From Yersinia thracica (GTDB taxonomy: Bacteria > Pseudomonadota > Gammaproteobacteria > Enterobacterales > Enterobacteriaceae), in assembly GCF_902170565.1 (NCBI RefSeq), contig NZ_CABHXX010000002.1:1-64000 (forward strand): 64,000 nucleotides of DNA, in the 5' to 3' direction. The notes under the pieces were generated by a model. That model was given only the letters and a program-made list of their open reading frames with translations, ran no database searches and was not told the DNA's origin. The position numbers and the translations under genes were made by a program. Of this stretch, positions 1-5,157 are shown piece by piece (position 1 is the first letter of the stretch; each line of letters starts with the position of its first letter).

Positions 1-73
1 CATTTAGGTTCAAAAACCGGTCTTAAAGTGGCGCACTTTTAAAGCATAACTGTGGCTCATTTTTAGACCATAA

Positions 74-370
74 TTGACAATTCCTGCACCTGGCAGTGAT
101 TTCACAGCTAATATGCATATAGCACCGGTTTCGAGTGCTGGTCCAGGAAACCCGGCGGGAAGTGTGTGGTTACGTGCTAATGCATCACCGTCAGCTGCAA
201 TAATTGGTCTTAATACAACTACTAACATAAGTGTCGTAACAGGGGTACTCACTGGTAGCACTGGTACTGCTGGCAACCTCACAATCTCGGCAGCTAATAC
301 GAATAATTTCTATATCGAAAATAGAACAGGGTCATCTAAGACGTTTATTATAACCCTATTAGGAAATTAA
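74..370 (+). pseudogene. Phage tail-fibre-like C-terminal fragment, probably broken
   Basis: This 98-residue reading frame opens with TTG immediately after an in-frame TAA at 71-73 and has no recognisable ribosome binding site. The sequence is rich in Gly, Ser, Thr and Asn and ends in short beta-strand-like pieces (LTISAANTNNFYIENRTG, then FIITLLGN). That style resembles the C-terminal tip of phage tail or tail-fibre proteins. The other two forward frames upstream close at 40-42 and 75-77, so the missing N-terminal part is frameshifted or deleted, or continues beyond the window in another frame. Phage origin is inferred from composition and style only. It lies 39 bases from the end of the converging glycosyltransferase gene, as expected for a tail gene beside a surface-conversion cassette. 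Confidence 0.45.
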
Positions 371-409: not shown

Positions 410-1993
410 TTACTTAATAAAAATAACACCATCAGTGATAGGTTTTAATGGAGTGCAGCCATTCTTGAAGTTTATATATGTGTACCCCTCATCGCTAAAT
501 GTAGTACCAGTATTTTCATCTGTGCATAACTCTCCATGCATTTTGTATTCATTTGGCACAAGTACCTTCATTATTTTTCCATTATGTGAGAATGCTGGGT
601 ACCCTTTTTCTGAATATACATTTTTGAATGGTACTTCCTTGCCATAAAATCTCTCCCAGAAAATTTCAGGTGTTGGATTGTATATGGTTGGAATGTTTTT
701 ATATGCCCACAATGCAACATTTGAGCTATTTAGATTTTTTAAGCTAAAATATGAATTATTATATTGCAATGCGTAGGTAAACAACTGGATTAAAACTGAT
801 AGTGATAATAAAATCCAAAAAATAATCTTGTTTTTAATGTTAAATAAAAATTCAACAAATGCAAAAACCAGAGGTATAGACGCCCAGAATGCATACCTCA
901 TAACATTATCCGCACCAGAGTTCCAGTTTGTCGTTGACAATGACGGAATAGTGGAAATTATTGTTATGAAAACTAACAATAACACTGTTCTATTGTTTTT
1001 TTTCTTTATATTTAAAATTGACAATAAAGCAAATATAGGAGTTAGCAATAATATTGCTGGGTAAAGAAGTATGGAGCCTTGATTTAAATCATAATGCATT
1101 GAAATAAATCGTCGCATTGATATTAAGTCCGCTCTTGCCCAGCCAGTCGCTATTAAACTTGGGACTCCATAATGATATAAATAAAACATTGATGGAATCA
1201 ATACTATGAGTCCGCTAAGAAAAGAAAAGGATATGTACTTTATTATTAGGTTTTTATTTCTAATTACATCAATTATACTTTTTTGTTTTGACTCTACCGC
1301 ATCAGCTACAACACCATAAAATAACACAATGGCGGCAGCTAACCCAAGAGGTGGATACTGAAGTGATGCCAATGCAAAAATGACCGATGCTAGAAGTACC
1401 TTTTCTCTCTTTATAAGGCATATTGCAATAATGGAAAGAGAAACTGTTATTGATTCAGGGTGAGGCCATTTCATGTATAAAAATGTTGTTTGTCCAACAA
1501 TAAAAAATAAAAGTGACAATCTATATAGTAAGGATTCTTTTAGAATGAAAAGCACAAAGAAAATGGATATTAGGAAAAATACTGCATTAGTGAGGTAAAA
1601 TGATTTTGTTGGTGCCTTATCAAAATTATTGGTTAATAGTAACGCAGGGGTATTTATAATAGAAAGGAATGAAAAGTGATAAGAGTAAAAGTCTCCATGT
1701 TTATCTTTGAAGTACCCATTCATTGCATACTTTGAGTCGCTGCAATCTTTTTCGTTGCCACATATATATAATGGGCTATTAAATTTAGCATCTTCTCGTC
1801 TGAATGCATTAACCAAATCACCTACATCTTTACTTTCTCGAAGTTGTGGCGTTCCATGATTAAGGAATGACTGGCTCATCAGTATGTATTCATGACCATC
1901 CCCTCTGATACCTGGAGATTGAGCGTTAAATACAAAAGCCAAGAAAAATAAAGATACAACTATATAAATCGTTTTTAATATTCTGTTATTCAT
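410..1993 (-). CDS. GT-C-like integral membrane glycosyltransferase
   Basis: A 527-residue polytopic protein with about ten hydrophobic segments and a soluble C-terminal part (about residues 430-527). The first membrane segment (about 8-24) is followed by an acidic motif, D32-G-H-E35-Y, in the first outer loop. That is where GT-C glycosyltransferases carry the acidic residues that act on polyprenyl-phosphate sugars. Such enzymes move a sugar from the lipid carrier to a glycan on the periplasmic face. It is the last gene of a three-gene operon, starting 10 bases after the SMR-type gene and two genes after a HAD-UbiA enzyme that could make the lipid-linked donor. GC is low compared with the core genes. 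The acceptor is unknown; O-antigen or another surface polysaccharide is an inference. I cannot assign a named family. Confidence 0.7.
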   Translation of the reverse strand: MNNRILKTIYIVVSLFFLAFVFNAQSPGIRGDGHEYILMSQSFLNHGTPQLRESKDVGDLVNAFRREDAKFNSPLYICGNEKDCSDSKYAMNGYFKDKHGDFYSYHFSFLSIINTPALLLTNNFDKAPTKSFYLTNAVFFLISIFFVLFILKESLLYRLSLLFFIVGQTTFLYMKWPHPESITVSLSIIAICLIKREKVLLASVIFALASLQYPPLGLAAAIVLFYGVVADAVESKQKSIIDVIRNKNLIIKYISFSFLSGLIVLIPSMFYLYHYGVPSLIATGWARADLISMRRFISMHYDLNQGSILLYPAILLLTPIFALLSILNIKKKNNRTVLLLVFITIISTIPSLSTTNWNSGADNVMRYAFWASIPLVFAFVEFLFNIKNKIIFWILLSLSVLIQLFTYALQYNNSYFSLKNLNSSNVALWAYKNIPTIYNPTPEIFWERFYGKEVPFKNVYSEKGYPAFSHNGKIMKVLVPNEYKMHGELCTDENTGTTFSDEGYTYINFKNGCTPLKPITDGVIFIK

Positions 1994-2003
1994 CTCTAAT
2001 GCT

Positions 2004-2336
2004 CTACTTTGAGATTATTAATACGATGCCAAATATTACAAGCACGGCACCAACTATCATTTTTATTGAAATTGTTTCACCGAAAACCATACCAGCAATC
2101 ATTAGCTGCAAGATGGCGAAGGAAACCATCACAGGGTATGCTCGAGAAACATCAATATCTTTAAGCCCGATACTGTACAGCACAAACCCAGCACCATAAA
2201 AAGCAATCGCCGGAAGCTTAATTAGTAGTGGATTAGATGATATTGAGAGTAACCCAATTTTATCAGGATATTTTAGAGCAATGCTTGCAGCAGCGCTGCA
2301 TAGAGCACTTAAAAATAAGCAGATATATCCAAACAT
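2004..2336 (-). CDS. SMR-superfamily small membrane protein, probable lipid-sugar flippase
   Basis: A 110-residue protein with four predicted membrane helices, the length and topology of the small multidrug resistance superfamily. Aligned by eye with EmrE from residue 1 (both have Tyr4-Ile5, Leu7 and Lys22), the essential Glu14 of drug exporters is Ser here. That argues against proton-coupled drug export and fits the ArnE/ArnF-like branch that flips undecaprenyl-phosphate sugars. Its ATG directly follows the stop codon of the HAD-UbiA gene, and its stop is 10 bases before the glycosyltransferase start, so the three genes are almost certainly co-transcribed and translationally linked. The likely role is moving the lipid-linked sugar across the inner membrane. 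This is inference from family and context. Confidence 0.75.
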   Translation of the reverse strand: MFGYICLFLSALCSAAASIALKYPDKIGLLSISSNPLLIKLPAIAFYGAGFVLYSIGLKDIDVSRAYPVMVSFAILQLMIAGMVFGETISIKMIVGAVLVIFGIVLIISK

Positions 2337-3749
2337 TTAAAACCCCGCCGCAAAAATCATTAAGGTTGCCATGCAAATACCCATAAGCTGGCTCGTTCTA
2401 TCTTTAATAGCAAAAGCGACAGGGTCATCATGCATATCACCACGCCATGTAAGCAACCACACACGGGTAAGCCAAACGAAAAGAATTGGTGCGATTAAAT
2501 ATAAAACATCAGGGTTGTTGTAGTTCTGCAAGCTAGCTGAGCTATCTATATAGAGAACAAAAACAAGGATTGAGATATACCCAGCTGATATCCCCGATGA
2601 TAAAAGCAATGGTATGTCAGTAGGGTAATAACCTCGACCCTTTATCTTTCCATCTGATTCAGCGGCTTTAAGTTCGACAACTCTTTTTACGATAGCAAGA
2701 CTGAAGAAAATAAACATAGAAAAAGAAATTAGCCAGTTTGACAATATAATTCCCGTTGCCGCTGCCCCTGCGACGAGACGCATTGAGTACAAAATTGCTA
2801 ATGTTGCGACATCGACCACAACCTTGCTTTTAAGAGAAAAAGAGTATGCCAGAGTGATAACGTAATATGAAGCCAATGCAAAGGCGAACTGTATTGGGAG
2901 ATATGATGTGATTATTATGGATAATATGAACAATATAACAGCAGCAATAATTCCATGTATTAGTGGTATTGCCCCTGATGCCAGCGGTCTGTTTCTCTTT
3001 GTTTTATGCTCTCTGTCTGCTTCTAAGTCTACAAGGTCATTAAGTAGATAAACGCTTGATGCACAGAACCCAAATGCAATGAAAGCAAGCATTGCATCTA
3101 ATAGTAGTGATGATTTACTTATCTCATGTGCAGCCAATATTGGAATAAAAATTAGTAGGTTTTTTGCCCATTGATGAATTCTTATTTCCTTTAGCCATGA
3201 TTTTATGGTTTTTTTATCACTATCAAATTTATACAAAATTGGTACTGATACTTTATTCATTAATTTCTTTGGCAGGTCAACAACGATAGCGCCTATTGAC
3301 TTATCCCACACCTTAATATCGTCAGATGAGTTACCCGCATAATCAAACGAGTCGGTATGAGATAAAATTTCATCTGCTTTAACTGATGATGAGACATTCT
3401 TAGTATCATTACTCGCAATTACTTTCGAGAAGATGCCTAGATGTTCTGATACTGATTGCGCTATTTTCTCATTTGCGGCAGTACACAGCCATATTTCCCT
3501 GCCATTTCTATGCTCTTCATGAAGCATAGCGAGCAGGCTTTCGTTATAAGGGAGTGATGACGCATTCATTGTTACGCGCTTAGCTATCTCGTTCTTAAGC
3601 GCAGCTTTGCCACGAATAAGCCATAATATGCATGCGAAAGCATAGAGTGGGTTTTTCTTAATCAGCATGAAGAATGATTCAACTAATGTATCTGTGCGCA
3701 CTAATGTGCCATCCAGATCAATGCAAAGTGGCGTTCCCATAGAATTCAT
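2337..3749 (-). CDS. HAD phosphatase-UbiA prenyltransferase fusion (decaprenyl-phosphate phosphoribosyltransferase-like)
   Basis: A 470-residue two-domain protein. Residues 1-165 are a HAD hydrolase: the nucleophile motif is D11-x-D13-G-T, and D143-D144 supply the metal-binding acids of motif IV. Residues 185-470 are a UbiA-type membrane prenyltransferase with the first aspartate motif NDLVDLEAD at 237-245 and the segment HQWAKN at 192-197, resembling the QWxKN signature of 5-phosphoribosyl-1-pyrophosphate:polyprenyl-phosphate transferases. Known members attach phosphoribose to decaprenyl phosphate, and a phosphatase then removes the 5-phosphate. One polypeptide here could do both steps and give polyprenyl-phosphoryl-ribose. 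No DprE1/DprE2-like epimerase is in the window, so ribose rather than arabinose is the simpler guess. A start at the fourth codon (ATG, 3740) is possible. The gene heads the operon. Confidence 0.8.
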   Translation of the reverse strand: MNSMGTPLCIDLDGTLVRTDTLVESFFMLIKKNPLYAFACILWLIRGKAALKNEIAKRVTMNASSLPYNESLLAMLHEEHRNGREIWLCTAANEKIAQSVSEHLGIFSKVIASNDTKNVSSSVKADEILSHTDSFDYAGNSSDDIKVWDKSIGAIVVDLPKKLMNKVSVPILYKFDSDKKTIKSWLKEIRIHQWAKNLLIFIPILAAHEISKSSLLLDAMLAFIAFGFCASSVYLLNDLVDLEADREHKTKRNRPLASGAIPLIHGIIAAVILFILSIIITSYLPIQFAFALASYYVITLAYSFSLKSKVVVDVATLAILYSMRLVAGAAATGIILSNWLISFSMFIFFSLAIVKRVVELKAAESDGKIKGRGYYPTDIPLLLSSGISAGYISILVFVLYIDSSASLQNYNNPDVLYLIAPILFVWLTRVWLLTWRGDMHDDPVAFAIKDRTSQLMGICMATLMIFAAGF

Positions 3750-3940
3750 AAAGATCCGTATTTTTTTAATAGCAGGAGTTTAGCACCTGAATGGGTGATG
3801 GTCATCTTTGGTCGGCAAAAGTATATAATTGCCTGGAAGAATTAGAACGCGGTGGTGAGTGTGTCAAATTTGTGCCAGAACAATGGCACAAAAATGCAGA
3901 ATAATGCAGATAACGATAATTACCACTTAAGCTGGCTGGC
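3750..3940. other. Intergenic junction between the accessory cassette and tgt
   Basis: No gene is seen. In E. coli relatives queA lies directly upstream of tgt. Here the surface-glycan cassette occupies that side, so this stretch probably holds the boundary between acquired and core DNA. I found no tRNA gene. A duplicated attachment core cannot be tested because the other end is outside the window. Confidence 0.4.

Positions 3941-5157
<1,217 letters not shown>

Follow-up and report, generated by a model that had tools for sequence, protein, structure and literature searches.

A three-component pentofuranose pathway has been described for Citrobacter youngae O1 and O2 (PNAS 2024, PMC11127046). 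ORF15, a synthase made up of a HAD phosphatase and a UbiA domain, produces polyprenyl-phosphoryl-ribofuranose from phosphoribosyl pyrophosphate (PRPP) in vitro with farnesyl phosphate, ORF14 is the proposed flippase, and ORF12, a GT-C enzyme that founded the GT136 family, places alpha-ribofuranose onto the O-antigen (PMC11127046). ORF14 is there called a four-helix MATE protein that is EmrE/ArnE-like, and would probably be termed SMR elsewhere. One example encoded by a phage is noted in the same paper, which raises the possibility of seroconversion by phages. Here, we describe a comparable set of three genes in Yersinia thracica, located at positions 410 to 3749 of a stretch of 64,000 bases (GCF_902170565.1, contig NZ_CABHXX010000002.1, positions 1 to 64,000; hereafter the window). 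An earlier note on this DNA had regarded these genes as an unusual lipid-linked pentose modification system. As the three-component pathway was already published in 2024 (PMC11127046), the chemistry can no longer be called unusual, and what is new relative to that paper is the phage context, namely a slot for conversion genes and the remnants of it. The trio is probably a prophage-derived lysogenic-conversion cassette that resembles gtrABC but would use pentose chemistry.

All three genes are on the minus strand and, as the earlier note had reported, they are tightly packed, with gaps of 0 bases (synthase/SMR) and 10 bases (SMR/transferase). They encode a fusion of a HAD phosphatase (approximately residues 1–180) and a UbiA-type polyprenyl phosphoribosyltransferase (approximately residues 184–470) of 470 aa (2337–3749), an SMR/EamA-type small membrane protein of 110 aa that is a candidate flippase (2004–2336), and a putative polytopic GT-C-like glycosyltransferase of 527 aa, identified from homology and motif order (410–1993). 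The trio is intact and in the same order in two further genomes, a second member of the genus (G406) and Erwinia typographi. Because order and integrity are kept in these genomes and the ratios of non-synonymous to synonymous substitution (dN/dS) are low, the trio is more than a chance association. At a threshold of 1e-60, the synthase was found in only two of the 25 genomes of the genus (the window genome and G406), and among 392 genomes of the family HAD-UbiA matches were confined to two (the window genome and G018). Among named organisms, Erwinia typographi has the closest relative of the synthase that was found (77 % identity), and the 104 plasmid records that matched the synthase all share <60 % identity. 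Among the megablast matches listed for E. coli genomes, only the tgt-secF part of the query was matched and not the cassette.

The synthase is the best-defined component. Its HAD (PF12710, 1.4e-7) and UbiA (PF01040, 4e-24) domains are both above the Pfam cut-offs and the HQWAKN segment lies at residues 192–197, confirming the fusion recognized in the earlier note. In NCBIfam, the protein belongs to PRK08238 (620 bits, cut-off 351), followed by three models for decaprenylphosphoryl-5-phosphoribose (DPPR) synthase at 175, 140 and 133 bits, each under its own cut-off, and a general prenyltransferase model at 55 bits. The best solved structure is also a DPPR synthase (8j8j, 2.9e-29), and the alignment to it spans the motif NDLVDLEADREHKTKRNRP. 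Hence, on sequence grounds the fusion is closest to decaprenyl-phosphate phosphoribosyltransferase, and the DPPR-synthase-like character attributed to the UbiA domain is upheld. This supports a role in lipid-linked pentose modification with a predicted substrate and surface target. The mycobacterial DPPR pathway (Rv3806c, 8j8j) likewise uses a UbiA-type phosphoribosyl transfer to polyprenyl phosphate and shares the NDxxDxxxD motif, but there is no fused HAD domain there. Seven residues (D11, N237, D238, D241, D245, R356 and E359) are invariant in ten aligned relatives and are the counterparts, assigned by motif and spacing, of the mutated ORF15 residues D18, N247, D248, D251, D255, R366 and E369; N237 and R356 are 119 residues apart, as are N247 and R366 in ORF15. 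The R366A and E369A mutants of ORF15 were still active (PMC11127046).

The 110 aa protein is above the Pfam cut-offs for EamA (PF00892, 36.6 bits) and Multi_Drug_Res (PF00893, 27.1 bits), in agreement with its previous designation as an SMR-type small membrane protein. Scores for ArnF (32 bits, cut-off 99) and ArnE (28 bits, cut-off 92) are well below those needed for membership and, judged by these models, the protein is of SMR type and not an Arn protein. In a search of the PDB, EmrE matched with E-values no better than 0.26 and ranked behind an unrelated transporter (0.11).

The clearest evidence for a phage connection comes from G406, where the trio lies inside a prophage bounded by attachment (att) sites and beside a tail-protein gene, as expected of a lysogenic-conversion set. 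The order is nadD, a 22 bp repeat, synthase, SMR, GT-C, a convergent gene for a 696 aa tail-type protein and a gene for an 853 aa virion protein, beyond which are structural, lysis and replication genes, an integrase gene (L094, 16856–17932) and the second 22 bp repeat, located at the start of rsfS. The repeats are 46.8 kb apart by coordinates, and the prophage also includes terminase, head and tail genes. In Erwinia typographi, the trio is found at the same nadD-rsfS site together with an integrase fragment (98 residues, 32 %, 4e-15) located between the cassette and rsfS (L005, 11633–11950), a sign that a prophage has decayed where that of G406 is integrated. No tail gene was found between this trio and rsfS, and the two flanks were found to have no repeats of ≥10 bases in common.

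In G406 the trio occupies the slot in which phage epsilon34 has gtrABC, epsilon15 its serotype-conversion genes and Tr60_Ab31 an O-antigen acetylase gene. The order in epsilon34 is tailspike, convergent GtrC, GtrB and GtrA, then attP and integrase. In both sets, the donor, flippase and transferase functions are assigned to three membrane-linked genes, of which that for the transferase is the closest to the tailspike gene and converges with it, and the opposite end of the set faces att. However, in the trio a PRPP-dependent UbiA synthase replaces GtrB, an SMR protein replaces GtrA and the two donor-side genes are in the reversed order. Homology between the transferase and the epsilon34 GtrC was not detectable (hhalign probability 1.4 %). 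Thus, the trio copies gtrABC in logic, as the earlier note had proposed, and also in position, yet it belongs to other families (UbiA and SMR) and is not a gtrABC member. In epsilon15, the serotype-conversion genes are also convergent with the tailspike gene, but the chemistry is different and holin and endolysin genes are on the far side in place of att. The Tr60_Ab31 acetylase gene is convergent with a tail fibre gene and adjoins the integrase gene, and Tr60_Ab31 shares the 853 aa virion protein of the G406 prophage (47 %), though again the chemistry differs. By the 853 aa protein, BUCT708 is a closer relative of the G406 phage (53 %). Near the corresponding position it carries a hypothetical gene, 1,251 bases long, that is likewise convergent. 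The Citrobacter youngae system shares with the trio the HAD-UbiA donor synthase, the small EmrE/ArnE-like transporter, a putative GT-C transferase and the residue counterparts, which for the transferase are candidates, but differs in that the set described here is prophage-linked. Among the papers listed in our searches of the open-licence literature, none besides PMC11127046 dealt with a phage-borne pentofuranose cassette.

The three proteins have diverged to very different extents. Between the window and G406, amino acid identity is 92 % for the synthase, 73 % for the SMR protein and 44 % for the GT-C-like protein, and DNA identity is 94–97 % in the central part of the synthase gene, 66–74 % in the SMR gene and 43–66 % in the transferase gene, a profile that fits an exchange of the transferase part. 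The dN/dS values are 0.06–0.11 for the synthase and SMR genes, most of them rough as dS exceeds 1.5, and 0.20 for the transferase gene in the one non-saturated pair of three; the trio is under purifying selection by this measure. The G+C content of its genes is low, at 32–39 % compared with 47 % in the remainder of the window. This pattern fits a horizontally moved, maintained module in which the transferase would be changing fastest. We consider it an evenly balanced question whether Erwinia-like temperate phages share an exchangeable ribofuranosylation module, comprising a conserved donor synthase and a fast-changing GT-C transferase, that is kept as a coat islet after the prophage has decayed, as may have happened in the window genome and in Erwinia typographi.

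From these comparisons we infer the reactions, sugar, acceptor and effect on phage binding at the window locus. The HAD-UbiA fusion would make the lipid-linked ribose polyprenyl-phosphoryl-ribofuranose, the SMR protein would flip it to the periplasm and the GT-C-like protein would transfer ribofuranose onto a glycan of the cell surface, for which the O-antigen is the most likely candidate. The decoration may then change the receptor that the same phage or its relatives use. The window genome includes three matches to Wzy_C (O-antigen ligase/polymerase) and therefore a lipid-linked acceptor pathway is plausible. The alternative we take most seriously, though it is the less probable, is that the acceptor is a capsule, an exopolysaccharide, pilin or another surface polymer or protein, or the lipid A-core. 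Enzymes of the DPPR-synthase type have been tied to pilin arabinosylation in Pseudomonas (PMC11127046), and no acceptor-binding domain was identified in the window transferase. On the other hand, a slot that holds O-antigen-modifying genes beside a tail-protein gene fits a polysaccharide receptor.

The designation GT-C-like is the weakest part of the description of the trio. The 527 aa protein matches no Pfam family, a profile of the transferase found no match in the PDB, and the score with an NCBIfam model for putative glycosyltransferases was 27 bits, far below the cut-off of 200. A profile built from the three transferases matched only three of the 392 family genomes at an E-value of 1e-5 or better, namely the window genome and two that encode 653 aa membrane proteins, G459 (1.4e-16) and G378 (1.2e-14). 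The homology to the first of these (G459) was confirmed with hhalign (98.7 %). Both are distant homologues in sugar loci (L110, 5271–7232 and L111, 5570–7531), where by eye they show DxxEY, HxE and RY motifs and adjoin GtrB-like, nucleotidyltransferase-like and flippase-like genes instead of a HAD-UbiA synthase gene; in G378, the search for HAD-UbiA gave no match at 1e-60. Residues D32, E35, Y36, H106, H178, E180, R366 and Y367 are invariant in the three copies of the transferase and parallel, in the same order, D31, E34, Y35, H106, H174, E176, R349 and Y350 of ORF12, a correspondence that was made by motif and order and not from a sequence alignment to ORF12. The H174A and E176A mutants of ORF12 were still active (PMC11127046). 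At 527 aa the window transferase is about 125 residues shorter than ORF12 (652 aa), which has a C-terminal carbohydrate-binding module that is dispensable there (PMC11127046). The designation is thus founded on homology to larger membrane proteins in sugar loci, on motif order and on the sub-threshold model score, and not on an above-cut-off family match.

The identity of the pentose was addressed by looking for epimerases. None of the three cassettes includes an epimerase gene. The search for DprE1 in the window genome that the earlier note had called for returned a single match of 24 % over 88 residues; SDR (short-chain dehydrogenase/reductase) epimerases were not searched for. As no convincing DprE1 was found in the genome, arabinose formed via DprE1 was rejected and ribofuranose is favoured over arabinofuranose by the gene content, as proposed previously. 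It is doubtful that arabinofuranose or xylofuranose is delivered instead, with an epimerase encoded elsewhere acting before or after flipping. In mycobacteria, DprE1/DprE2 yield arabinofuranose, and in Citrobacter O2 an SDR epimerase diverts the same pathway to xylofuranose (PMC11127046). To place the window locus, 13 other HAD-UbiA loci were examined, made up of nine of the 13 above-cut-off matches outside the window in 394 genomes and four of five further loci, the fifth being that of Erwinia typographi. The other four above-cut-off loci (L015, L019, L021 and L023) were not enlarged, and two of them (L015 and L019) show an SMR match. A DprE1 homologue is present at five of the 13 loci (L114, the gene of which was the query, and L120, L121, L122 and L006 at 40–53 %), an SMR gene adjoins the synthase gene at seven (L115–L119, L009 and L007), and one on a 6 kb contig (L008) has neither. 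The two were found together at none of the 13, which argues against an arabinose product for the window locus, as it is of the SMR type. The HAD-UbiA loci thus seem to be of two types, one with DprE1 (arabinose-type) and one with an adjacent SMR gene. A GtrA-family protein is encoded at two of the DprE1 loci. The SMR gene is followed by one for a candidate membrane transferase in L116, L119 and L009; in L117 and L118 no such candidate comes directly after it.

In the window itself, what looks like a prophage remnant extends from a tail-protein end through a hairpin, the trio and a 20 bp repeat to tgt. The C terminus of a tail(spike)-like phage protein (74–370, plus strand; phrog_14558) is convergent with the cassette, and its residues 47–96 match residues 689–737 of the 740 in the phrog_14558 tail spike (6.5e-7). 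A stable, putative terminator-like hairpin separates the convergent genes (374–405; the fold of 355–425 has −15.5 kcal/mol and z −5.0, and 0 of 200 shuffles were as stable). Beyond the trio is the 20 bp direct repeat CATCAGACTGTTTCTCTGAT (3989–4008, plus strand), a candidate insertion boundary with a second copy just after queA at the end of contig C12, and then tgt (4021–5157, plus strand; the E. coli tgt lies under the match), the chromosomal flank. There is no tRNA gene within the window. The contig edge (1–79) is the end of a repeated element, of which 77 bp identical copies lie at the ends of four other contigs (C32, C63, C77 and C90), and the repeat at these five contig ends is probably an insertion sequence at which the assembly was interrupted. 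Any further part of a prophage would therefore lie beyond the visible sequence. The end of C12 resembles the reverse complement of window positions 1–79 (by eye). Tyrosine integrase matches (L098 and L096) are on C77 and C90, both of which end in the 77 bp repeat. Stretches of contigs C84, C50, C90, C32, C77 and C63 were scanned with the three cassette-protein profiles only and gave no match.

The queA-tgt junction was matched in 24 of the 25 genomes of the genus, i.e. in 23 besides the window genome. The two genes are 73–99 bases apart in 15 of these 23, where the short junctions carry the 20 bp repeat sequence or a variant of it, and approximately 1.1 kb apart in six. The remaining two have autotransporter-like (G411) and phage-tail-like (G401) ORFs (open reading frames; both by eye). 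The junction is thus a variable site in the genus (window 3760–4020; L070–L078, L101, L102 and L103).

Several points weigh against the interpretation of the trio as a prophage-derived pentose cassette. By eye, the homologues that adjoin a GtrB-like gene show the transferase residue pattern too and, because of this, the pattern would mark a transferase lineage and not fix the donor, which we take from the synthase and not from the transferase. For the window copy, the case for a prophage origin is built on the 98 aa tail-protein end and the arrangement. The 853 aa protein of the G406 phage was not found in the window genome, and comparison of the tail fragment with the tail protein of G406 gave nothing significant; hence, the window copy did not simply arrive with the same phage as in G406. 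Finally, the phage and IMG/VR collections that were searched yielded no copy, save one distant UbiA-only match in INPHARED (H11, 30 % over 58 % of the query, in an unannotated record of 6.6 kb). INPHARED gave nothing for the GT-C-like protein or the tail fragment, and nothing was found in scans of IMG/VR, which start from short peptide patterns and may miss relatives. A chromosomal glycan islet of the ordinary kind, with no phage origin and next to a tail-protein end by coincidence, would agree with the single phage fragment at a contig edge and with the location of most of the other enlarged HAD-UbiA loci among chromosomal sugar genes (by eye), but we regard this reading of the trio as distinctly improbable given its location inside an att-bounded prophage in G406, the integrase fragment that accompanies it at the corresponding site in Erwinia typographi and the recurrence in the window of the convergent arrangement with a tail-protein gene. 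A quinone, haem or chlorophyll-type prenyltransferase, with which the UbiA domain has the fold and an aspartate-rich motif in common, was rejected as very improbable indeed on model scores, as the haem O, UbiA and (bacterio)chlorophyll models gave 17–33 bits (17–28 for the polyprenyl-benzoate and chlorophyll types named in the earlier note) versus 620 for PRK08238 and 133–175 for DPPR synthase, and the three other UbiA-family proteins of the genome score higher on the UbiA model.

If the trio is indeed a prophage-derived conversion cassette, it provides a resolved genetic context for phage-mediated pentofuranose seroconversion, an idea suggested in PMC11127046, and widens the chemistry known in the conversion slot of tailspike phages. 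It predicts strains in which the pentose of a surface glycan comes and goes with a prophage. If an exchangeable module is shared, lysogens would gain different pentose epitopes from one donor. The pairing of a conserved synthase with a variable transferase makes modular coat change directly testable.

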